Positions 8,067-18,627 of a DNA stretch of 34,591 bases are shown here, piece after piece (position 1 is the first letter of the stretch; every line of letters starts with the position of its first letter). This stretch comes from Pilibacter termitis (GTDB taxonomy: Bacteria; Bacillota; Bacilli; Lactobacillales; Streptococcaceae). The stretch lies in the NCBI RefSeq assembly GCF_900167335.1, contig NZ_FUXI01000028.1:1-34591 (forward strand), in the 5' to 3' direction. The notes below the pieces were generated by a model. It did no database searches. It had not been told where the DNA came from and saw nothing but the letters and a program-made list of their open reading frames with translations. The position numbers and the translations under genes are program-made.

Positions 8067-9244
8067 TGGAAAAATTTATTGAAACTTACAAAAGAGAACG
8101 GAAAAACACCAATTCATTAAAATGGGATTTATTAGAAGAACGTTATGGAGACGCAAATCTTCTACCTTTGTGGGTGGCGGATATGGATTTTGCAACTCCG
8201 ATTGGTGTTCAAGAGGCGTTACGGAAAAAGGTAGACGAAGGCATTTTTGGCTATGCGATTGTTCCGAAAGACTATTTTTCAGCCTTTGATGCGTGGCAAA
8301 AACGACATAGCGGAGCAAAATTTGAAGAAAACTGGCTTTATTTTTCAACTGGTGTGGTTCAAGCACTCTATCATTTGATTGATTGTTTTACAAAATCAGG
8401 AGATAAAATATTGATTCAACCACCCGTTTATTATCCGTTTTTCCAAGCAATCGAAAGACAAAATCGCACGCTCCTCTCTTCTCCTTTGAAAAATAATAAT
8501 GGAAATTATGAAATGGATTTTAAAGATTTGGAGCAACAATTTCAAACAGAAGATATTAAAATGATGATTTTCTGTTCTCCTCACAATCCCGTAGGCAGAG
8601 TTTGGCGAGAGGACGAATTGAAACGATTGATTGATTTATGCGAAAAATATCAAGTTCTCCTTCTTTCTGATGAAATTCACGGAGATTTGATTCAACCAGA
8701 ATACTCGTTTACTTCTATGATTTCAGTTGCTGAAAAAAGGCAACATGATTGGTTGATTGTACTAAATGCACCAAGCAAAACATTTAATTTGGCAAGTCTG
8801 CTCAATGCACATCTGTTCATTCCAAGCGAAAAAAGGCGAAACGTCTTTGAAAAATGGAAGTTGGCTCATTGGGAAACGGAATACTCTTCACTCGGGCAAA
8901 TTGCTGCAATGAGTGCCTATCAAACGGGAGATGAATGGCTAGAAAATATCCTAAAAATCGTCCGTTATAATTACGAATTGCTGAAAAATCAACTTTCCGA
9001 GGCAATTCCTGCAATAAAAATCGCTGAATTGCAAGGAACTTACCTCGCATGGCTTGATTGTCGAAATTGGATTGATGAACAGGAGATAAAAAATTATGTG
9101 CAAAATTTAGCAGGTCTTGCAATTGACTACGGCGAATGGTTTTCAAGCGACACAAAAGGATTTATCCGTATCAACCTCGCAACCACACCAGAGATAATCC
9201 AAAAAGCAATCAACCAACTTATCATGGTGGAAAACGAAAAGTAA
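8066..9244 (+). CDS. patB: PatB/MalY-type cystathionine beta-lyase (PLP C-S lyase)
   Basis: Fold-type I PLP enzyme of 392 residues, close in layout to PatB/MalY. PLP lysine is Lys238 in NAPSKTFNL; the pyridine-binding Asp is Asp202 in SDEIHGD; PLWVADMDF near the N-terminus and SPHNPVGRVW (171-180) are hallmarks. These enzymes split cystathionine to homocysteine, pyruvate and ammonia, and can aminotransfer or degrade other C-S compounds. Position directly after metA (1-nt overlap) supports the methionine role. The loop after Lys238 reads NLASLLNAH where relatives usually have NIAGL. The ATG follows GGAGG inside metA. Confidence 0.85.
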   Translation: MEKFIETYKRERKNTNSLKWDLLEERYGDANLLPLWVADMDFATPIGVQEALRKKVDEGIFGYAIVPKDYFSAFDAWQKRHSGAKFEENWLYFSTGVVQALYHLIDCFTKSGDKILIQPPVYYPFFQAIERQNRTLLSSPLKNNNGNYEMDFKDLEQQFQTEDIKMMIFCSPHNPVGRVWREDELKRLIDLCEKYQVLLLSDEIHGDLIQPEYSFTSMISVAEKRQHDWLIVLNAPSKTFNLASLLNAHLFIPSEKRRNVFEKWKLAHWETEYSSLGQIAAMSAYQTGDEWLENILKIVRYNYELLKNQLSEAIPAIKIAELQGTYLAWLDCRNWIDEQEIKNYVQNLAGLAIDYGEWFSSDTKGFIRINLATTPEIIQKAINQLIMVENEK

Positions 9245-9849
9245 AGAGGGGCGTTCAGGAGCTTGTCGTAGTGAGCCACAGCATTTACTTGCTGGAAACG
9301 AAGTTTCCAGTGCTGTTGCGAACAGCGACCAAACTCCTGCCACTCGGAGCTAGACAAAGAAAAGCAGAGAGGGGCGGTTAGGAGTTTGTCGCAGTGAGCC
9401 ATGCCATTTACTTGCCTGAAACAGAGTTTCAGGTGGCATTGCGAACAGCGACCAAACTCCTGACACTCGGAGCTAGACAAAGAAAAGCGTAGAGGGGCGG
9501 TTAGGAGCTTGTCGTAGTGAGCCACAGCATTTACTTGCTGGAAACGAAGTTTCCAGTGCTGTTGCGAACAGCGACCAAGATCCTGCCACTCGGTGCTAGA
9601 CAAAGAAAAGCTACGAGGGGCGTTCAGGAGCTTGTCGTAGTGAGCCACAGCATTTACTTGCTGGAAACGAAGTTTCCAGTGCTGTTGCGAACAGCGACCA
9701 AGCTCCTGCCCCTCATAGCTAGACAAAGAAAAGCAAAGAGGGGCGGTTAGGAGTTTGTCGTAGTGAGCCATGCCATTTACTTGCCTGAAACAAAGTTTCA
9801 GGTGGCATTGCGAACAGCGACCAAACTCCTGACACTCATAGCTAGACAA
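9245..9849 (+). repeat. Hairpin repeat cluster B: five tandem units
   Basis: Five head-to-tail units of 113-123 bp: B1 9245-9357, B2 9358-9480, B3 9481-9603, B4 9604-9726, B5 9727-9849. Each has a GAGGGGCG head, a GTCG/CGAC arm pair, a variable arm, a tip hairpin and the tail TAGACAA. Two sequence types occur in the order 1-2-1-1-2. Type 1 pairs ACAGCA with TGCTGT and CTGGAAAC with GTTTCCAG. Type 2 pairs TGCCA with TGGCA and CCTGAAAC with GTTTCAGG. Both arms change together, so pairing is kept. B5 ends exactly where the ribosome site of the next gene begins. Frames through the array are repeat translations and are not called as genes. Confidence 0.9.
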
Positions 9850-9861
9850 GGAGAAAACAAA

Positions 9862-11883: not shown

Positions 11884-12666
11884 TTATTTTTTCAATGAAA
11901 CCAACAATTTACGAACGAAATCACTGATTTCTGTTTTCTTTCCTTTGTTCAACCCGTCAACAATATAGCTCCCAACAATCACGCCGTCACAATGTTTGCG
12001 GAATGCTTGTGCTTGTTCTATGCTTGAAATACCAAAACCTGCGAGAACAGGAAGAGTGCTATTTTCCGTCAAAAAACTTAGGTTTTCAAAAATCTTATCG
12101 GAATAGTCGCTTTTCGTACCTGTCACACCGTTGATTGCTACCGTATAAACAAAGCCCTCACCGTGATTGACAAGCATTTTCATTCGCTCTTTGTCCGTGG
12201 TTAGTGAAACGAGCGGGATAAGTGAAAGATCGCTGTCTTTCGTAAAACGTGTAATCATCTCACTATGCTCAAACGGAACATCTGGTACAATCAAGCCTTT
12301 TACGGCAGTATGTTCCAAATCCGCTACAAATTTTTCCACACCATATACAAAAACTGGGTTAAAATAAGTCATCAAAATAAGTGGGGTTTTTACTTTGATT
12401 GTTTGCAATTGAGCAATGATTGCTTTTAGACTTGTTTCGTTCTCCAACGCACGAATGGCTGCCTCTTGGATAACAGGACCGTCTGCTACGGGGTCTGAAA
12501 ACGGAATGCCCACTTCAATTGCACTCGCCCCTAATTCTTCTAAGTAGAGCAATGTTTCTTCCAATCCGTCTAATCCTAACGCATGGTCGCCTGCCATGAT
12601 GTACGGCACAAAAATTCCTGCGTTTTCTTCTTTTAGTGTATTCAAGTGTTTCGTTAAAGTTTTCAT
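11884..12666 (-). CDS. trpA: Tryptophan synthase alpha chain
   Basis: Cleaves indole-3-glycerol phosphate to indole and glyceraldehyde 3-phosphate within the alpha2beta2 complex. The 260-residue TIM barrel has the catalytic glutamate in SAIEVGIPFSDPVADGP (about 49-65), and GFGISSIEQ near residue 212 for phosphate binding. The usual ITAGDP of the family reads IMAGDHALG here. The start overlaps the trpB stop by 1 nt (TAATG), with GGGGGG upstream. It is the last gene of the trp operon. Confidence 0.95.
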   Translation of the reverse strand: MKTLTKHLNTLKEENAGIFVPYIMAGDHALGLDGLEETLLYLEELGASAIEVGIPFSDPVADGPVIQEAAIRALENETSLKAIIAQLQTIKVKTPLILMTYFNPVFVYGVEKFVADLEHTAVKGLIVPDVPFEHSEMITRFTKDSDLSLIPLVSLTTDKERMKMLVNHGEGFVYTVAINGVTGTKSDYSDKIFENLSFLTENSTLPVLAGFGISSIEQAQAFRKHCDGVIVGSYIVDGLNKGKKTEISDFVRKLLVSLKK

Positions 12667-13865
12667 TAACTAATCCCCCCTTTTTCAAATCTATCTTTAA
12701 GCTGAGCGACATCCTTGTCTCCTCGACCAGAAAGACAAAGAATGATGATTTTATCTTTTCCATATTGCTTAGCGATCTCTGGTAATTTGCTGATAGCGTG
12801 AGAGCTTTCAAGTGCTGGGATAATTCCTTCTGTTTGGCAAAGAAGTTTAAATCCTTCTAGTGCCTCGTCATCTGTTGCGGCAATGTACTTCACTCGTCCC
12901 GTCTCATCCCAATGACAATGCTCAGGTCCAAGTCCCGGATAATCAAGCCCTGCCGAAATTGAGTATGCTTCTTGAATTTGCCCGTTTTCATCTTGTAAAA
13001 TTTTCATCAAATTTCCATGCAGAACACCGTCTTTTCCACGATTAATACTTGCAGCTGTCTCCGTTGTATCTAGCCCACGACCAGCAGCTTCTACCCCAAT
13101 CATTGCCACTTCGCTATCGTTGACAAATGGATAGAAAAGTCCTGCTGCATTTGAGCCACCGCCACAACAAGCGATTAACACATCTGGCAAACGACCTTCT
13201 TTTTCCAAAATCTGTTCTCTTGCCTCTTTACCTATTACGCTTTGAAAGTCTCTCACCATTTCTGGAAATGGTGCAGGGCCTGCTGCTGTGCCTAAAACAT
13301 AGTGCGTATCCTCTACTTCTGCTACCCATGCTCGTAATGCCTCGTTTACAGCATCTTTTAGCACTCGTGAGCCTGTGGTAACTGCGTGAACTTTCGTCCC
13401 CAACAATTCCATACGAAATACGTTGAGTGCTTGGCGTTTCACGTCCTCCTCGCCCATATACACTTTACATTCCATGCCAAAAAGTGCTGCTGCTGTGGCT
13501 GTGGCAACTCCGTGCTGCCCTGCCCCAGTTTCTGCGATGATTTTGGTTTTCCCCATTCTTTTTGCCAACATTACTTGAGCAAGAGCGTTATTGATTTTAT
13601 GGGCTCCCGTGTGGTTCAAATCCTCACGTTTTAAATAAATTCTTGCTCCTCCTAATTTTTCTGACAAATTCTTCGCATAATAAAGCGGATTTTCTCGACC
13701 AACATAGTCTTTCAGAAGATAATTCAATTCCTTTTGAAATTCTTCATCCTCTTTGATTTCATCATATGCTTGTTTTAACTCTTTGACTGCACTCATCAAG
13801 GTTTCTGGAACAAATTGCCCGCCGTAAGTGCCGAAAAATCCTTTGTTGTCTGGTTTTTGATACAT
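12666..13865 (-). CDS. trpB: Tryptophan synthase beta chain
   Basis: PLP-dependent condensation of indole with serine to tryptophan. The 399-residue length is standard. PLP lysine is Lys90 in [11 protein letters not shown]; the catalytic AETGAGQHG and the PLP-phosphate loop [10 protein letters not shown] are both present. The ATG at 13865 follows AGGAGG. The gene pairs with trpA by overlapping stop and start, as expected for a fixed-ratio complex. Confidence 0.96.
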
Positions 13866-13875
13866 AATAAACCTC

Positions 13876-14493
13876 CTAATTTTTTAGCTGATTATTTTTC
13901 ACCGTTTGTATAAAATCTTTTATTTTCCTTATGTTTTTTTCACCGTTCACCTCAACACCGCTTGAGACATCTACACCTGTCGGGTGAAAATATTGGATTG
14001 CTTGTACGACATTTTCACTTGTTAAACCACCTGCAATAAAAAATTGGTAGTTAGAAAGTTGTGAAACGTCTACTTTTTCCCATTCAAAACGCTCGCCATT
14101 GCCTCCTGCAAATTTTCCTGACGGAGCATCAAGCAAAATAGTATGCTCATGAAATTCTTTTATCCCCTCTGGAAGTTTGCCCTCTTCAACACTAAACGCT
14201 TTTAAAATTGGTACGTTTATTTCATTTGCATAGTCAATACTCTCACTTCCGTGCAATTGAACCATGTCAAGCGGCACTTCTTCGATAAGTTCTTTCACTT
14301 TCGTCAAATCTTCGTCGACAAAAAGACCGACTTTCACAATCCCGTCTGGTATGAGCTTTGCTAGAGATCGAGCTTGCTGTTTCGTGATTTTTCGCTTGCT
14401 TTTAGCAAAGACAAAACCGATGTGTGTTGCTCCATTTTCTACCGCCGCTTGAACTGCCTCTTGTGTTTTTAACCCACATATTTTAATCAACAT
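13876..14493 (-). CDS. trpF: Phosphoribosylanthranilate isomerase
   Basis: Amadori rearrangement of phosphoribosylanthranilate in tryptophan synthesis. The 205-residue TIM barrel starts with [10 protein letters not shown], carrying the conserved catalytic Cys, and has [17 protein letters not shown] with the catalytic Asp, and a phosphate site [11 protein letters not shown]. It overlaps the end of trpC by 11 nt, so the two steps acting on the same intermediate are translated together but not fused. Confidence 0.95.
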
Positions 14494-15250
14494 TTCGTCT
14501 CACCTGAAGGCGACTTGCCGCCGTTTTCGCATCTTTTTCTTTCATCAATGCCTCGCCCACTAAGACTGCACGATAATTTTCCGCCACTTTTTTCGCCTCT
14601 ACCGCTGATTTTATCCCAGATTCTGAAATATAGAAAACGCCTGATTTTTGAAGTTTCGCAAGGTGCAAACTCGTTTCTATCGACACTTCAAATGTTTTCA
14701 AATTTCGATTGTTCACACCGATTAAATTGCCACCAATGGAATGGGCAACCGCAAGTTCCTCCTCGTTATGCACTTCTACCAAAACTTCTAAGCCAATCGA
14801 AGTAGCATATTCATAAAGTACTTGTAATCTTTCTTTCGATAACGCTGCAACAATCAATAAAATCATCGTCGCTCCAGCATTTACCGCTCGATTCACTTGT
14901 TTTTCGTCAATAATGAAGTCTTTATTTAAAACGGGCAACTCTACATTTTTTGCGACCAATCGCAAGTCTTCAATATTTCCTTTGAAAAACACAGGGTCAG
15001 TTAAAACGGAAATCGCTGAAACATTCGCTTGCTCGTATTGTTTGGCTTGATTTAGCACGTCCACTTCCATATTGATCGCACCAAGAGAGGGTGAGGCACG
15101 CTTTACTTCGGCAATGATTTGTAAATTTTGTTCATTTTTCCTCAATCTTTCGATAAAAGAAGTCGTTTTTCTTACTTTCCCTACTTTCTCTAAAGGCATT
15201 TTGGCAACTTCTTTTTCCTTTTCCAATAATATTTTTTCTAAAAAATCCAT
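14483..15250 (-). CDS. trpC: Indole-3-glycerol phosphate synthase
   Basis: Closes the indole ring from CdRP. The 255-residue barrel shows IAEVKRASPSLG (46-57), the catalytic LNKDFIID and GATMILLIVAAL, GVNNRNLKTFEV and ISESGIKS phosphate-binding segments. Length is typical of the single-domain enzyme. The start lies 4 nt after the trpD stop region. Confidence 0.95.
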   Translation of the reverse strand: MDFLEKILLEKEKEVAKMPLEKVGKVRKTTSFIERLRKNEQNLQIIAEVKRASPSLGAINMEVDVLNQAKQYEQANVSAISVLTDPVFFKGNIEDLRLVAKNVELPVLNKDFIIDEKQVNRAVNAGATMILLIVAALSKERLQVLYEYATSIGLEVLVEVHNEEELAVAHSIGGNLIGVNNRNLKTFEVSIETSLHLAKLQKSGVFYISESGIKSAVEAKKVAENYRAVLVGEALMKEKDAKTAASRLQVRRNVD

Positions 15251-15253
15251 TGT

Positions 15254-16261
15254 TTACCCCCTTTGCACACGTTGCATTTCTTCTAATTTTTGATAGGCAA
15301 CTCCATTATCTAACAACTCTCTTGCAAGTTCAATCCCCTCTTTTACAGTAGTCGCTTTGTCCGCCGCATAAAAGCCTAATCCTGCGTTTAATAAAGTTGT
15401 TTCTTTGTAAGGAGAATTTTCACCTTTTAGTACGCTTTTCAAGATTTCAGCATTTTCATGTGGCTCGCCCCCACGAATCTCCTTGACCGAAATTTCCTTT
15501 AAACCAACGCTTGCTGCATCAAATTCATGAAGTGTGATTTCGCCATTTTCAAGAAGAGCATATTGATTTACACCAGACAAACTTGCCTCGTCCATGTTCT
15601 CAGGACCGCTAATGACCACTGCTCGCTTACGTCCTAGCTCTTTTAGCGTTTCCGCCGTTTGAGCGATTAAATCTCTCCTTGACGTTCCCATTAATTGATA
15701 TTCTAGCGGAACTGGATTGGTCAGCGGGCCAATCAAATTCATAATCGTTGGAATTTCTAACTCTCTGCGTACCCCTGTAATAAAACGCATATTCGGGTGC
15801 AAATGTTGAGCGAATAAAAAGACAAGACCTGTTTCATCTAAAATTTCCCCTAAACGCTCAGCTGGCAAGTAAAGATTAATGCCTAGAGTTTCCAAAACAT
15901 CTGCACTGCCAGATTTTGAGCTAATGGAACGATTCCCATGTTTTGCCATGTTCACCCCGCCAGATGCTAAAACAAAGGCTGAAGTAGTCGAAACATTAAA
16001 ACTGAAACTTCTATCTCCTCCTGTTCCGCAATTATCCATAATTCCTACTCTTTTTGTAGGGATTTTCGTCGCATTTCGTTGGATAACTTCAGCAAGACCT
16101 GCCATTTCAACAGCACTTTCACCTTTCATTTTCAAAGCGATTAAGAAAGAAGAAACTTGTGCGTCCGTTAATTCTCCTTGAAAAATAGATGTTCCCACTT
16201 GCAAAATTTCATTGCGGTTCAAATTTTCACGATCAATAATTTTTTCTAATAGTCCTTTCAT
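15254..16261 (-). CDS. trpD: Anthranilate phosphoribosyltransferase
   Basis: Transfers phosphoribosyl from PRPP to anthranilate. The 335-residue protein has the PRPP/phosphate motif CGTGGDRSFSFNVST near residue 78-92 and KHGNRSISSKSGSADVLE for anthranilate and PRPP binding, both intact. The start overlaps trpG by 4 nt and follows GAGGAGG. It is a stand-alone TrpD; the glutamine amidotransferase is a separate gene here. Confidence 0.95.
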   Translation of the reverse strand: MKGLLEKIIDRENLNRNEILQVGTSIFQGELTDAQVSSFLIALKMKGESAVEMAGLAEVIQRNATKIPTKRVGIMDNCGTGGDRSFSFNVSTTSAFVLASGGVNMAKHGNRSISSKSGSADVLETLGINLYLPAERLGEILDETGLVFLFAQHLHPNMRFITGVRRELEIPTIMNLIGPLTNPVPLEYQLMGTSRRDLIAQTAETLKELGRKRAVVISGPENMDEASLSGVNQYALLENGEITLHEFDAASVGLKEISVKEIRGGEPHENAEILKSVLKGENSPYKETTLLNAGLGFYAADKATTVKEGIELARELLDNGVAYQKLEEMQRVQRG

Positions 16262-16845
16262 TTTCTTGCCTCCTCATTATTAGTGATTTTCACAAAGTTC
16301 TCAATCATTTTTAGTCCCTCTGGTGTCGAGATAGACTCTGGGTGAAATTGTAGTCCAAAAAGATTCAATTTTTCATGCTCAAACGACATAATTTCCGCAT
16401 CTCCCTCACTTCGTGAAGTAATTCTTAATTCACTAGGAAAACTCGCCTCCTCAACTACAATCGAGTGATAACGCATTGCTGTAAATTCTCTTGGAATTTC
16501 TTGGAAAATTTCACTTTCACCCGTATGTGTCACTTGACTTTCCTTGCCGTGCATGGTTTCCTTTGCCAAAATCAATTTCCCACCTAACACTTCGACAATC
16601 GCCTGATGTCCTAAACAAATTCCAAGCATTGCTTTTTTTCGATAGAAATGTTCAATCACTTTTTCAAGATTTCCCGCCTCACTCGGCCAACCGGGTCCCG
16701 GCGAAAGCACGATACCACTCGCTTTTTCTAACTCTTCAAACAGATTTTTTGCGTCATTTCGGATGACTTTCACCTCGGTAAAAGTGCCAAGATATTGAGC
16801 TAAATTGTGCGTAAAGGAATCGTAATTATCGACTAAAACAATCAT
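16258..16845 (-). CDS. trpG: Anthranilate synthase glutamine amidotransferase subunit
   Basis: Releases ammonia from glutamine for TrpE. The 195-residue class I glutaminase has the nucleophile Cys77 in GICLGHQ and the His168/Glu170 pair in QFHPES; the oxyanion segment SPGPGWP is at 48-54. In some Firmicutes this subunit also serves folate (PabA); none of the pab genes is nearby. The ATG overlaps the trpE stop (ATGA) with GGGGTGA upstream. Confidence 0.93.
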   Translation of the reverse strand: MIVLVDNYDSFTHNLAQYLGTFTEVKVIRNDAKNLFEELEKASGIVLSPGPGWPSEAGNLEKVIEHFYRKKAMLGICLGHQAIVEVLGGKLILAKETMHGKESQVTHTGESEIFQEIPREFTAMRYHSIVVEEASFPSELRITSRSEGDAEIMSFEHEKLNLFGLQFHPESISTPEGLKMIENFVKITNNEEARK

Positions 16846-18242
16846 GAAATCACCCCGTTTTCTATTTTGTTATACTCATGCTCTTCAACTTCTAGCAATG
16901 CTTTTGCTTTGTGCAAAGTTTCCTCATATTCTTTTTCAGGTTCAGAGTCAAAGACAATTCCAGCTCCCGCTTGCACATAAGCTTTTTTATCCTTGACAAC
17001 CATTGTCCGAATGGCAATAGCAAAATCGCAAGAATCATTTTGCGAAAGATAGCCGACAGCACCGGCATATACACCACGCTTAACTTTTTCAAATTCATAA
17101 ATTCTTTGCATTGCACGAATTTTTGGTGCTCCTGACACAGTCCCTGCTGGAAGTAAAGATTTTAGTGCGTCCATTGAGGTGTAACTTTGCTTTAATTGTC
17201 CTGTAACAACGGACACTAAGTGCATTACATAGCGATATTTCTCTACGGTCAAGTAAAGTGGCACTTTGACGGAGCCGATTTCGGATATTTTTCCTATATC
17301 ATTTCTGCCCAAGTCTACAAGCATTTTGTGTTCTGCTAACTCTTTTTCGTCATTTTCTAACTCTTGCTCTAGTGCGAAATCTTCTTGCGGTGTCACACCA
17401 CGCTTTCTAGTCCCTGCGATTGGATTGGTGGACACCACCCCGTCTTTGACCGAAACCAAACTCTCAGGAGACGAACCGATAATTTGCGTATCGCCAAAAT
17501 CAATGAAATACAAATAACTTGACGGGTTACTTTGTCGTAATTTTCGGTAGTAGGCAAACGGGTCGTAGGGAAAATCTGCTGACAAACGCTGACTTGGCAC
17601 CATTTGGAAAATATCCCCTTGCCGAATGTACTCTTTTGCGTTCTTGACAATTTCCATAAATTCTTGCTTTGTATAATTACTCTTGTAATCCAATTTGGGA
17701 ATGGTAATCTGCTGGTATTCCGTCTCTTGCACGTTTAACACTTCCTGCATTTTTTCTTCGATTGCCAAATCCAACTCCGCCTCACTCCTCTTCGAGTAAG
17801 TATCTTCCTCGACAAAATAAATCCTCTCTTTTTGGTGGTCAATGAGTACATAAGAGTCAAAGAGGAAAAAACGCATATCGTCTAGTCCAATTTCATCTGG
17901 CGGAATTTCACCAATATCCTCATAACAAGCGAATACATCATAACCAACATACCCAATTGCCCCACTTTGAAACGGTAAGTCTTCGACTAATTTTTCTTTT
18001 TTCACCACGTATTTTTCTAACTCTTTTAACGGGTCAAGGCAAGGGAAACTTTCCTTGTCTAGCTGAAAAATTCCAGCATGGTAACGACACTCATGCACTG
18101 GGTCAAGTGCGATAATGGTATATCTCGCCTTTTCCTTTTCTCGTGGAATACTTTCTAACATCGTCTTATTTTTTCCTTTTAACCGCAAATAAACAGCTAC
18201 TGGAGTTAAAAAATCTGCGTTCATCACTTTTATTTTTCTCAT
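16842..18242 (-). CDS. trpE: Anthranilate synthase component I
   Basis: Converts chorismate and ammonia to anthranilate, the first and regulated step. The start at 18242 is preferred because GGAGG lies 5 nt upstream; an ATG at 18254 overlaps that site. This gives 466 residues. The N-terminal MLESIPREKEKARY carries the LES-type motif linked to tryptophan feedback in the family. The C-terminal chorismate-binding domain has SPESLVS, NPIAGTRKRG, LVDLGRNDIG and GTVSGAPKIRAM. It heads the trp operon directly below the T-box leader. Confidence 0.95.
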   Translation of the reverse strand: MRKIKVMNADFLTPVAVYLRLKGKNKTMLESIPREKEKARYTIIALDPVHECRYHAGIFQLDKESFPCLDPLKELEKYVVKKEKLVEDLPFQSGAIGYVGYDVFACYEDIGEIPPDEIGLDDMRFFLFDSYVLIDHQKERIYFVEEDTYSKRSEAELDLAIEEKMQEVLNVQETEYQQITIPKLDYKSNYTKQEFMEIVKNAKEYIRQGDIFQMVPSQRLSADFPYDPFAYYRKLRQSNPSSYLYFIDFGDTQIIGSSPESLVSVKDGVVSTNPIAGTRKRGVTPQEDFALEQELENDEKELAEHKMLVDLGRNDIGKISEIGSVKVPLYLTVEKYRYVMHLVSVVTGQLKQSYTSMDALKSLLPAGTVSGAPKIRAMQRIYEFEKVKRGVYAGAVGYLSQNDSCDFAIAIRTMVVKDKKAYVQAGAGIVFDSEPEKEYEETLHKAKALLEVEEHEYNKIENGVIS

Positions 18243-18261
18243 AACAACCTCCATTTTCTAT

Positions 18262-18593
18262 AAAAAAACACCCCAGACTAATAGCTAGTCTGAGGGTGCA
18301 ATTGCACGGTACCACCTCTTGATAACTTTCCAAAGTACACGAACACCCTCACACCAAATAAATGGTATGAGGGTGTTTCACACGGTGCCACCTCGCAAAA
18401 AGTTTCGCTCATCACTGTCTAACAACAGCATACTCTATATTGGGAGCACCCAGTATTCCTTAATAAGCTAAGCCGTTCGGAATACAATTTGAAAGTCCAT
18501 TCACCTCTCACCTACTACTAACTCCCACCAAACGTCAGCTCTCTAAAAATAAGTTGAAAGGATACTACTCTTTCTTCAATCTGTTTTTATATT
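18262..18593 (-). ncRNA. Trp-specific T-box leader with duplicated antiterminator/terminator half
   Basis: Read on the minus strand, the leader contains Stem I features (AGAGAG, then GGTGGGA in the distal loop) and a specifier loop GAATGGAC, with TGG (Trp) at 18499-18497. A first T-box core GAGGTGGCACCGTG lies at 18381-18395 and is followed by a hairpin (18342-18377) with no T run. Only about 24 nt later comes a second core GAGGTGGTACCGTG (18305-18318) and a hairpin (18269-18298) followed by T7. There is no second Stem I between them, so one specifier serves two antiterminator modules. The first bulge TGGC fits discriminator G73 of tRNA-Trp exactly; the second TGGT would need a wobble. Uncharged tRNA-Trp should allow read-through into trpE. 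Confidence 0.9.
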
Positions 18594-18599
18594 ACATTT

Positions 18600-18627
18600 A
18601 TTATACCTAAATTTTTTTGAATGTCAA
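18600..18627 (-). promoter_or_regulatory. Promoter of the trp operon
   Basis: On the minus strand TTGACA (18627-18622) and TATAAT (18605-18600) are both perfect, with a 16-nt spacer. Transcription would start near 18593 and enter the T-box leader. A copy of the 155-bp element's terminal sequence lies only a few bases upstream. Confidence 0.88.

Follow-up and report, generated by a model that had tools for sequence, protein, structure and literature searches.

The stretch of DNA analysed here, called the window in the following (34,591 nucleotides), carries a genuine partially tandem Trp T-box upstream of a complete trpEGDCFBA operon, and its anatomy had been described correctly from the letters. 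The layout is already known; the odd point is that the first of the two modules seems to have lost its stop signal. We consider it probable that the leader responds to tRNA-Trp, with module 2 acting as the working terminator and module 1 being a former terminator that is now poor or dependent on factors.

Anatomy of the leader

Promoter, T-box leader and operon follow one another on the minus strand, promoter and leader together occupying 18627 to 18262 (Table 1). NCBIfam matches over the cut-off were obtained for all seven trp genes. Near the operon, at 9236–9861 of the window, a 123-base unit is also repeated in tandem, with 5.1 copies and 85% matches; a 240-aa minus-strand open reading frame runs through the repeats.

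Table 1. Positions of the promoter, leader elements and trp genes in the window.
Feature	Position	Strand	Basis
Predicted sigma-70-like promoter, TTGACA-16-TATAAT	18600..18627	-	consensus match 12/12; predicted by position
T-box Stem I (approximate limits)	18486..18582	-	Rfam RF00230 alignment
Specifier TGG (Trp) within GAATGGAC	18497..18499	-	sequence reading at the site set by the RF00230 alignment
Stem II (GTATTCC/GGAATAC)	18453..18485	-	RF00230 alignment and fold
Stem IIA/B region, GGGTGCTCCC then GAGTA (approximate)	18430..18452	-	sequence reading and RF00230 alignment
Hairpin CTGTTGTTAGACAG, between IIA/B and the antiterminators	18415..18428	-	fold; similar hairpins in relatives by eye
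Module 1 antiterminator, T-box bulge TGGCACC	18369..18394	-	fold GAGG[TGGCACC]GTGT-GAA-ACAC-CCTC
Module 1 competing hairpin, 15 pairs, poor U-tract	18342..18377	-	loose terminator scan, hairpin scoring
Module 2 antiterminator, T-box bulge TGGTACC	18292..18318	-	fold GAGG[TGGTACC]GTGC-AATT-GCAC-CCTC
Module 2 intrinsic terminator with T7	18262..18299	-	loose terminator scan and terminator score
trpE	16842..18242	-	TIGR00564 above cut-off; ATG at 18242, GGAGG just upstream; start picked by ribosome-binding site
trp genes other than trpE	11884..16845	-	NCBIfam matches above cut-off and open reading frames

The Rfam covariance model RF00230, which the sequence-only reading had proposed for a check of the fold, matches the leader on the minus strand at 18588–18289 (88 bits, E 1.1e-19, model positions 1–219). 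Since 88 bits lie under the gathering score of 93, a default Rfam scan of the leader reports nothing, and leaders of this kind can thus be missed by such scans. The alignment threads module 2, and module 1 falls in an insertion. Over 18255–18560 the folding energy is 5.5 standard deviations below that of shuffled sequences (z −5.5), with 0 of 100 shuffles as good.

Alignment and sequence reading agree with the layout given by the sequence-only reading: one Stem I with a TGG (Trp) specifier and trpE downstream, then two T-box cores, AGGTGGCACCGTG and AGGTGGTACCGTG, 76 nt apart and with antiterminators, as in a partially tandem T-box. A second Stem I between the cores is excluded because only 76 nt separate them, and a fully tandem T-box, for which two Stem I elements are required, was rejected. 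The region between Stem II and the small hairpin is called Stem IIA/B here.

In both modules the 3' strand of the antiterminator is part of the module's own competing hairpin, so that the two folds are mutually exclusive. With −6.8 kcal/mol, antiterminator 2 is the best fold of its own stretch; antiterminator 1 reaches −3.8 kcal/mol, and its own 26 nt fold better at −5.2 kcal/mol. Module 2 thereby has an antiterminator whose UGGN bulge can pair with the NCCA end of the tRNA and that is exclusive with a terminator, and the run of seven T noted earlier after its hairpin lies at 18268–18262. Module 1 has an antiterminator and a competing hairpin, followed by the tail CGTGTACTTT.

Relatives of the leader

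A TrpE-guided scan of named bacterial genomes yielded six loci. Two close cores were present in four of them (L014–L017, with spacings of 96, 100, 169 and 100), and one core each in the other two (L018, L019). By eye, L014–L017 have one Stem I, a count that for L016 refers to the leader outside its 169-nt spacer. Nearest by TrpE among these loci are L014 (Enterococcus sp. MMGLQ5-1) and L015 (Streptococcaceae MAG).

When 58 relatives were searched with the DNA, ten matched, the own genome counted. Three of the ten matches are trp leaders resembling that of the window, from genomes of the neighbouring genus g6; of these, L021 and L023 agree with L014 and L015 over the stretch compared, and L022 has a single module. 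Six other matches were weak (E 5e-6 to 8e-4). No match came from the other Pilibacter genome (59% complete), and the form seen in the window was found in one genome only.

Pattern scans for two close cores covered part of the possible spacings, so that their counts are lower bounds, and the order and class samples overlap. At order level at least 10 of 395 genomes matched, six of them being T-boxes on reading (the own genome, G241, G260, G387, G339 and G383); the matches in G058, G112, G353 and G088 were read as other sequence, mostly coding repeats, and discarded. At class level there were matches in at least 8 of 398 genomes, the own one included, all T-box-like on reading. The reversed pattern, used as a control, matched two genomes in each sample. 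Within the Enterococcaceae-like family of G036, a short-gap pattern, whose reach ends below spacings near 100, matched none of 105 genomes; a longer-gap pattern matched six of the 105.

Partially tandem T-boxes were also seen upstream of other genes, namely DAHP synthase- or chorismate mutase-like genes, named by eye (L076, L077, L078, L079 and L080), and a gene apparently encoding an amino acid ABC transporter permease (L032–L036). L032 also shows complementarity between the spacer that follows terminator 1 and a stretch lying upstream of core 1.

The poor U-tract of module 1

Both modules of 23 loci were scored by T-weight (nT) and d score after d'Aubenton-Carafa, with the hairpin chosen for stability plus T-weight. 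L021 and L023 were omitted as copies of L014 and L015, and L089 has the same values throughout as L017, which leaves 22 distinct leaders and 44 modules. Module 1 of the window (nT 2.24, d −5.9) scores lowest of the 44 and is the sole one below zero, the remaining 43 having nT 2.88–5.68 and d 9.4–52.2. These values support the earlier impression that hairpin 1, lacking a T run, may not terminate by itself. The other 21 first modules, those of the two nearest relatives by TrpE included, show nT of at least 3.63 and d of at least 9.6; in L014 and L015 hairpin 1 is followed by TTTTTTT (nT 5.33 each). Module 2 of the window has a d of 23.7. The highest number of T in any eight-base stretch from the loop to the following core is five in the window, a tie with L080 (five) among 17 leaders.

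Because module 1 has a U-tract in the relatives compared, the loss in the window looks derived, and within the set of leaders examined the poor tract is a trait of this lineage and not of the class. In an alignment of the window with L014 and L015 the U-tract columns are not deleted and stand opposite GTGTTCG. The same alignment has a 23-nt gap in the window against both relatives, starting 9 bases past hairpin 1. The tract may have been lost by substitutions, by a deletion or by both.

From these data the following course of events can be proposed. Uncharged tRNA-Trp would anchor on the single Stem I, and its 3' GCCA end would meet the T-box bulge, upon which the antiterminator would form and RNA polymerase would pass; with charged tRNA-Trp no antiterminator would be made. 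Module 2, with its strong hairpin and T7, would be the deciding terminator, since it has the only good one by score. Module 1, like its counterparts in the relatives, was probably a full terminator in the past and would have lost its U-tract in this lineage. It may now stop the polymerase rarely, or only with the help of factors, antiterminator 1 and hairpin 1 being still able to form. Since Stem I is common to both modules, they should read one tRNA species, and the suggestion that they respond to different charging states found no support.

Ten pairs of hairpin 1 were compared between the window and L014: two carry changes in both strands and one in a single strand, and pairing is preserved. 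Together with the intact antiterminator 1 this suggests past, perhaps present, selection on module 1. It also bears on a narrower form of our reading, with overlapping odds, in which module 1 is a recently broken and functionless remnant with the rest undecayed. The 23-nt gap fits such a break, and so do the core spacing of 76, the shortest of 22 (others 80–169), and the single module of L022 in the neighbouring genus. However, with GTGTTCG opposite the U-tract columns one clean deletion is not shown, and for this reason we regard a functionless remnant as rather unlikely. Antiterminator 1 retains its stems and core, the hairpin still has 15 pairs, and the kept pairing speaks against decay, although the timing of these changes relative to the loss of the U-tract is not fixed. 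A decayed first module had been named beforehand as the finding that would refute two modules acting in series. The relatives keep the U-tract and the loss looks derived; a module that is nothing but a remnant is possible but unproven, antiterminator and hairpin pairing being intact.

Slightly less probable still is that both modules terminate. Hairpin 1 would then be stable enough, perhaps with NusA, to need little U-tract, and the two serial checkpoints would sharpen the response. Hairpin 1 is indeed strong (−23.3 to −25.9 kcal/mol), still competes with a formable antiterminator 1, and is listed as terminator-like, along with hairpin 2, by the loose terminator scan. A study in B. subtilis reports that Nus factors (NusA, NusG) aid many suboptimal terminators, NusA acting at suboptimal hairpins and interrupted U-tracts (PMC8060035), and hairpin 1 might therefore still terminate. 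A sharper or pseudo-cooperative response has been proposed for double T-boxes, which might act cooperatively according to a 2022 paper (PMC9413887), and for tandem riboswitches (PMC12452182). On the other hand, the U-tract interruptions described in PMC8060035 are distal, whereas the proximal tract of hairpin 1, TTCGTGTAC, is itself poor; the TTNTTT motif was not seen on reading this tract, and the module scores lowest of all 44.

Core pairing and the bridge helix

Module 1 could also be a folding relay, controlled by tRNA and non-terminating, in which one tRNA-reading step gates another without a first stop. Once hairpin 1 had formed, core 1 would pair with core 2, which would block antiterminator 2 and favour terminator 2; uncharged tRNA holding antiterminator 1 would free core 2. 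With hairpin 1 formed, the predicted core1:core2 pairing has a probability of 0.98–1.0 in the window versus 0–0.02 in L014 and L015, and in the transcript that still lacks terminator 2, forcing antiterminator 2 to form costs the ensemble about 3 kcal/mol. A consensus fold of the window, L014 and L015 (three sequences only) also pairs core with core. However, shuffling the flanks leaves a mean pairing probability of 0.63, with values of at least 0.9 in 40% of 300 shuffles. The pairing is also 1.0 in L034 and L035, both of which have U-tracts, and 0.4–0.95 in seven other leaders; it owes largely to the self-complementarity of T-box cores. Furthermore, enforcing antiterminator 1 in the same stretch costs about 14 kcal/mol. 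The helix is thus predicted yet unspecific, we rejected it as a specific feature of the window, and such a relay appears improbable.

A bridge helix enclosing module 1, formed by the sequences 5' of core 1 and 5' of core 2, is not claimed for the window. In a gapped duplex test the window gave no signal (P 0.37), and weak signals were obtained in 3 of 17 leaders (P 0.02–0.03). When contiguous helices were tested, the window reached P 0.113 through a different helix, and seven of 17 leaders fell below P 0.05 (L015, L033, L076, L078, L079, L080 and L081). In a register picked after seeing L015, the paired positions out of ten number nine in the window, seven in L014, ten in L015, three in L016 and two in L017.

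T-box bulges and tRNA-Trp

The difference between the two bulges of the window, TGGC in module 1 and TGGT in module 2, had been noted as a contrast between a fitting and a wobble partner for G73. The difference itself is real, but nothing about it is unusual. Among ten distinct trp-type leaders the pair TGGC/TGGT occurs in seven (the window, L016 and L084–L088), TGGT/TGGT in two (L014, L015) and TGGC/TGGC in one (L017). Assignment as trp-type relies on a downstream TrpE-like open reading frame in nine of the ten, with a profile check for the TrpE of the window; for L088 no open reading frame was found, and it was placed by its TGG specifier and its likeness to the others. In the TBDB paper, 46% of Trp T-boxes are reported to have U facing G73 (PMC7778990), and wobble at this position is therefore ordinary. 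The repeated order, C and then U, may nevertheless merit a look. A fully tandem leader, L026, shows the same order, TGGC first and TGGT second.

Of five tRNA-Trp genes called by ARAGORN in relatives, four were read by eye and all four have G73, one of them (L090) having an irregular acceptor stem. In the own assembly (98.7% complete) a tRNA-Trp gene was not found, so that G73 was read in relatives only. A tRNA family search of the own genome gave 34 matches, with 150 of 166 candidates scored, and ARAGORN called no tRNA-Trp on 30 loci. One tRNA-Trp sequence pattern had 0 matches there; two looser patterns had 4 and 2, none of which looked like a tRNA by eye. Perhaps the absence of the gene reflects an assembly gap.

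Comparison with known systems

Vitreschak et al. reportedly described, in RNA in 2008, a class of T-boxes with duplicated terminator–antiterminator elements. Another source names partially tandem T-boxes and states that their mode of action is unknown (PMC7583486); the layout of the window belongs to this known class, and the sequence-only reading had already mentioned partly duplicated T-boxes for trp genes. A 2025 survey of Bacillota found that, of all pathways, tryptophan biosynthesis shows the strongest enrichment for tandem T-boxes (PMC12452182). Among literature titles and abstracts, a weak search with subscription papers mostly outside its scope, we found no partially tandem T-box with a non-terminating module 1.

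With partially tandem T-boxes in general the leader shares one specifier and two modules in series, and it differs from the 21 other leaders compared in the poor U-tract of module 1 (d −5.9 versus at least 9.6). Its closest counterparts, L014 and L015, have the same gene, specifier and two modules, with TrpE 71 and 70% identical; they differ in their spacing (96 and 100), in having U-tracts on both terminators and in carrying TGGT in both bulges. A natural leader with one apparently terminating module and relatives with two such modules form a ready pair for isolating the contribution of module 1. Fully tandem trp T-boxes likewise have two cores upstream of trp genes, but there every core is preceded by a separate Stem I and specifier, as seen by eye in L026.
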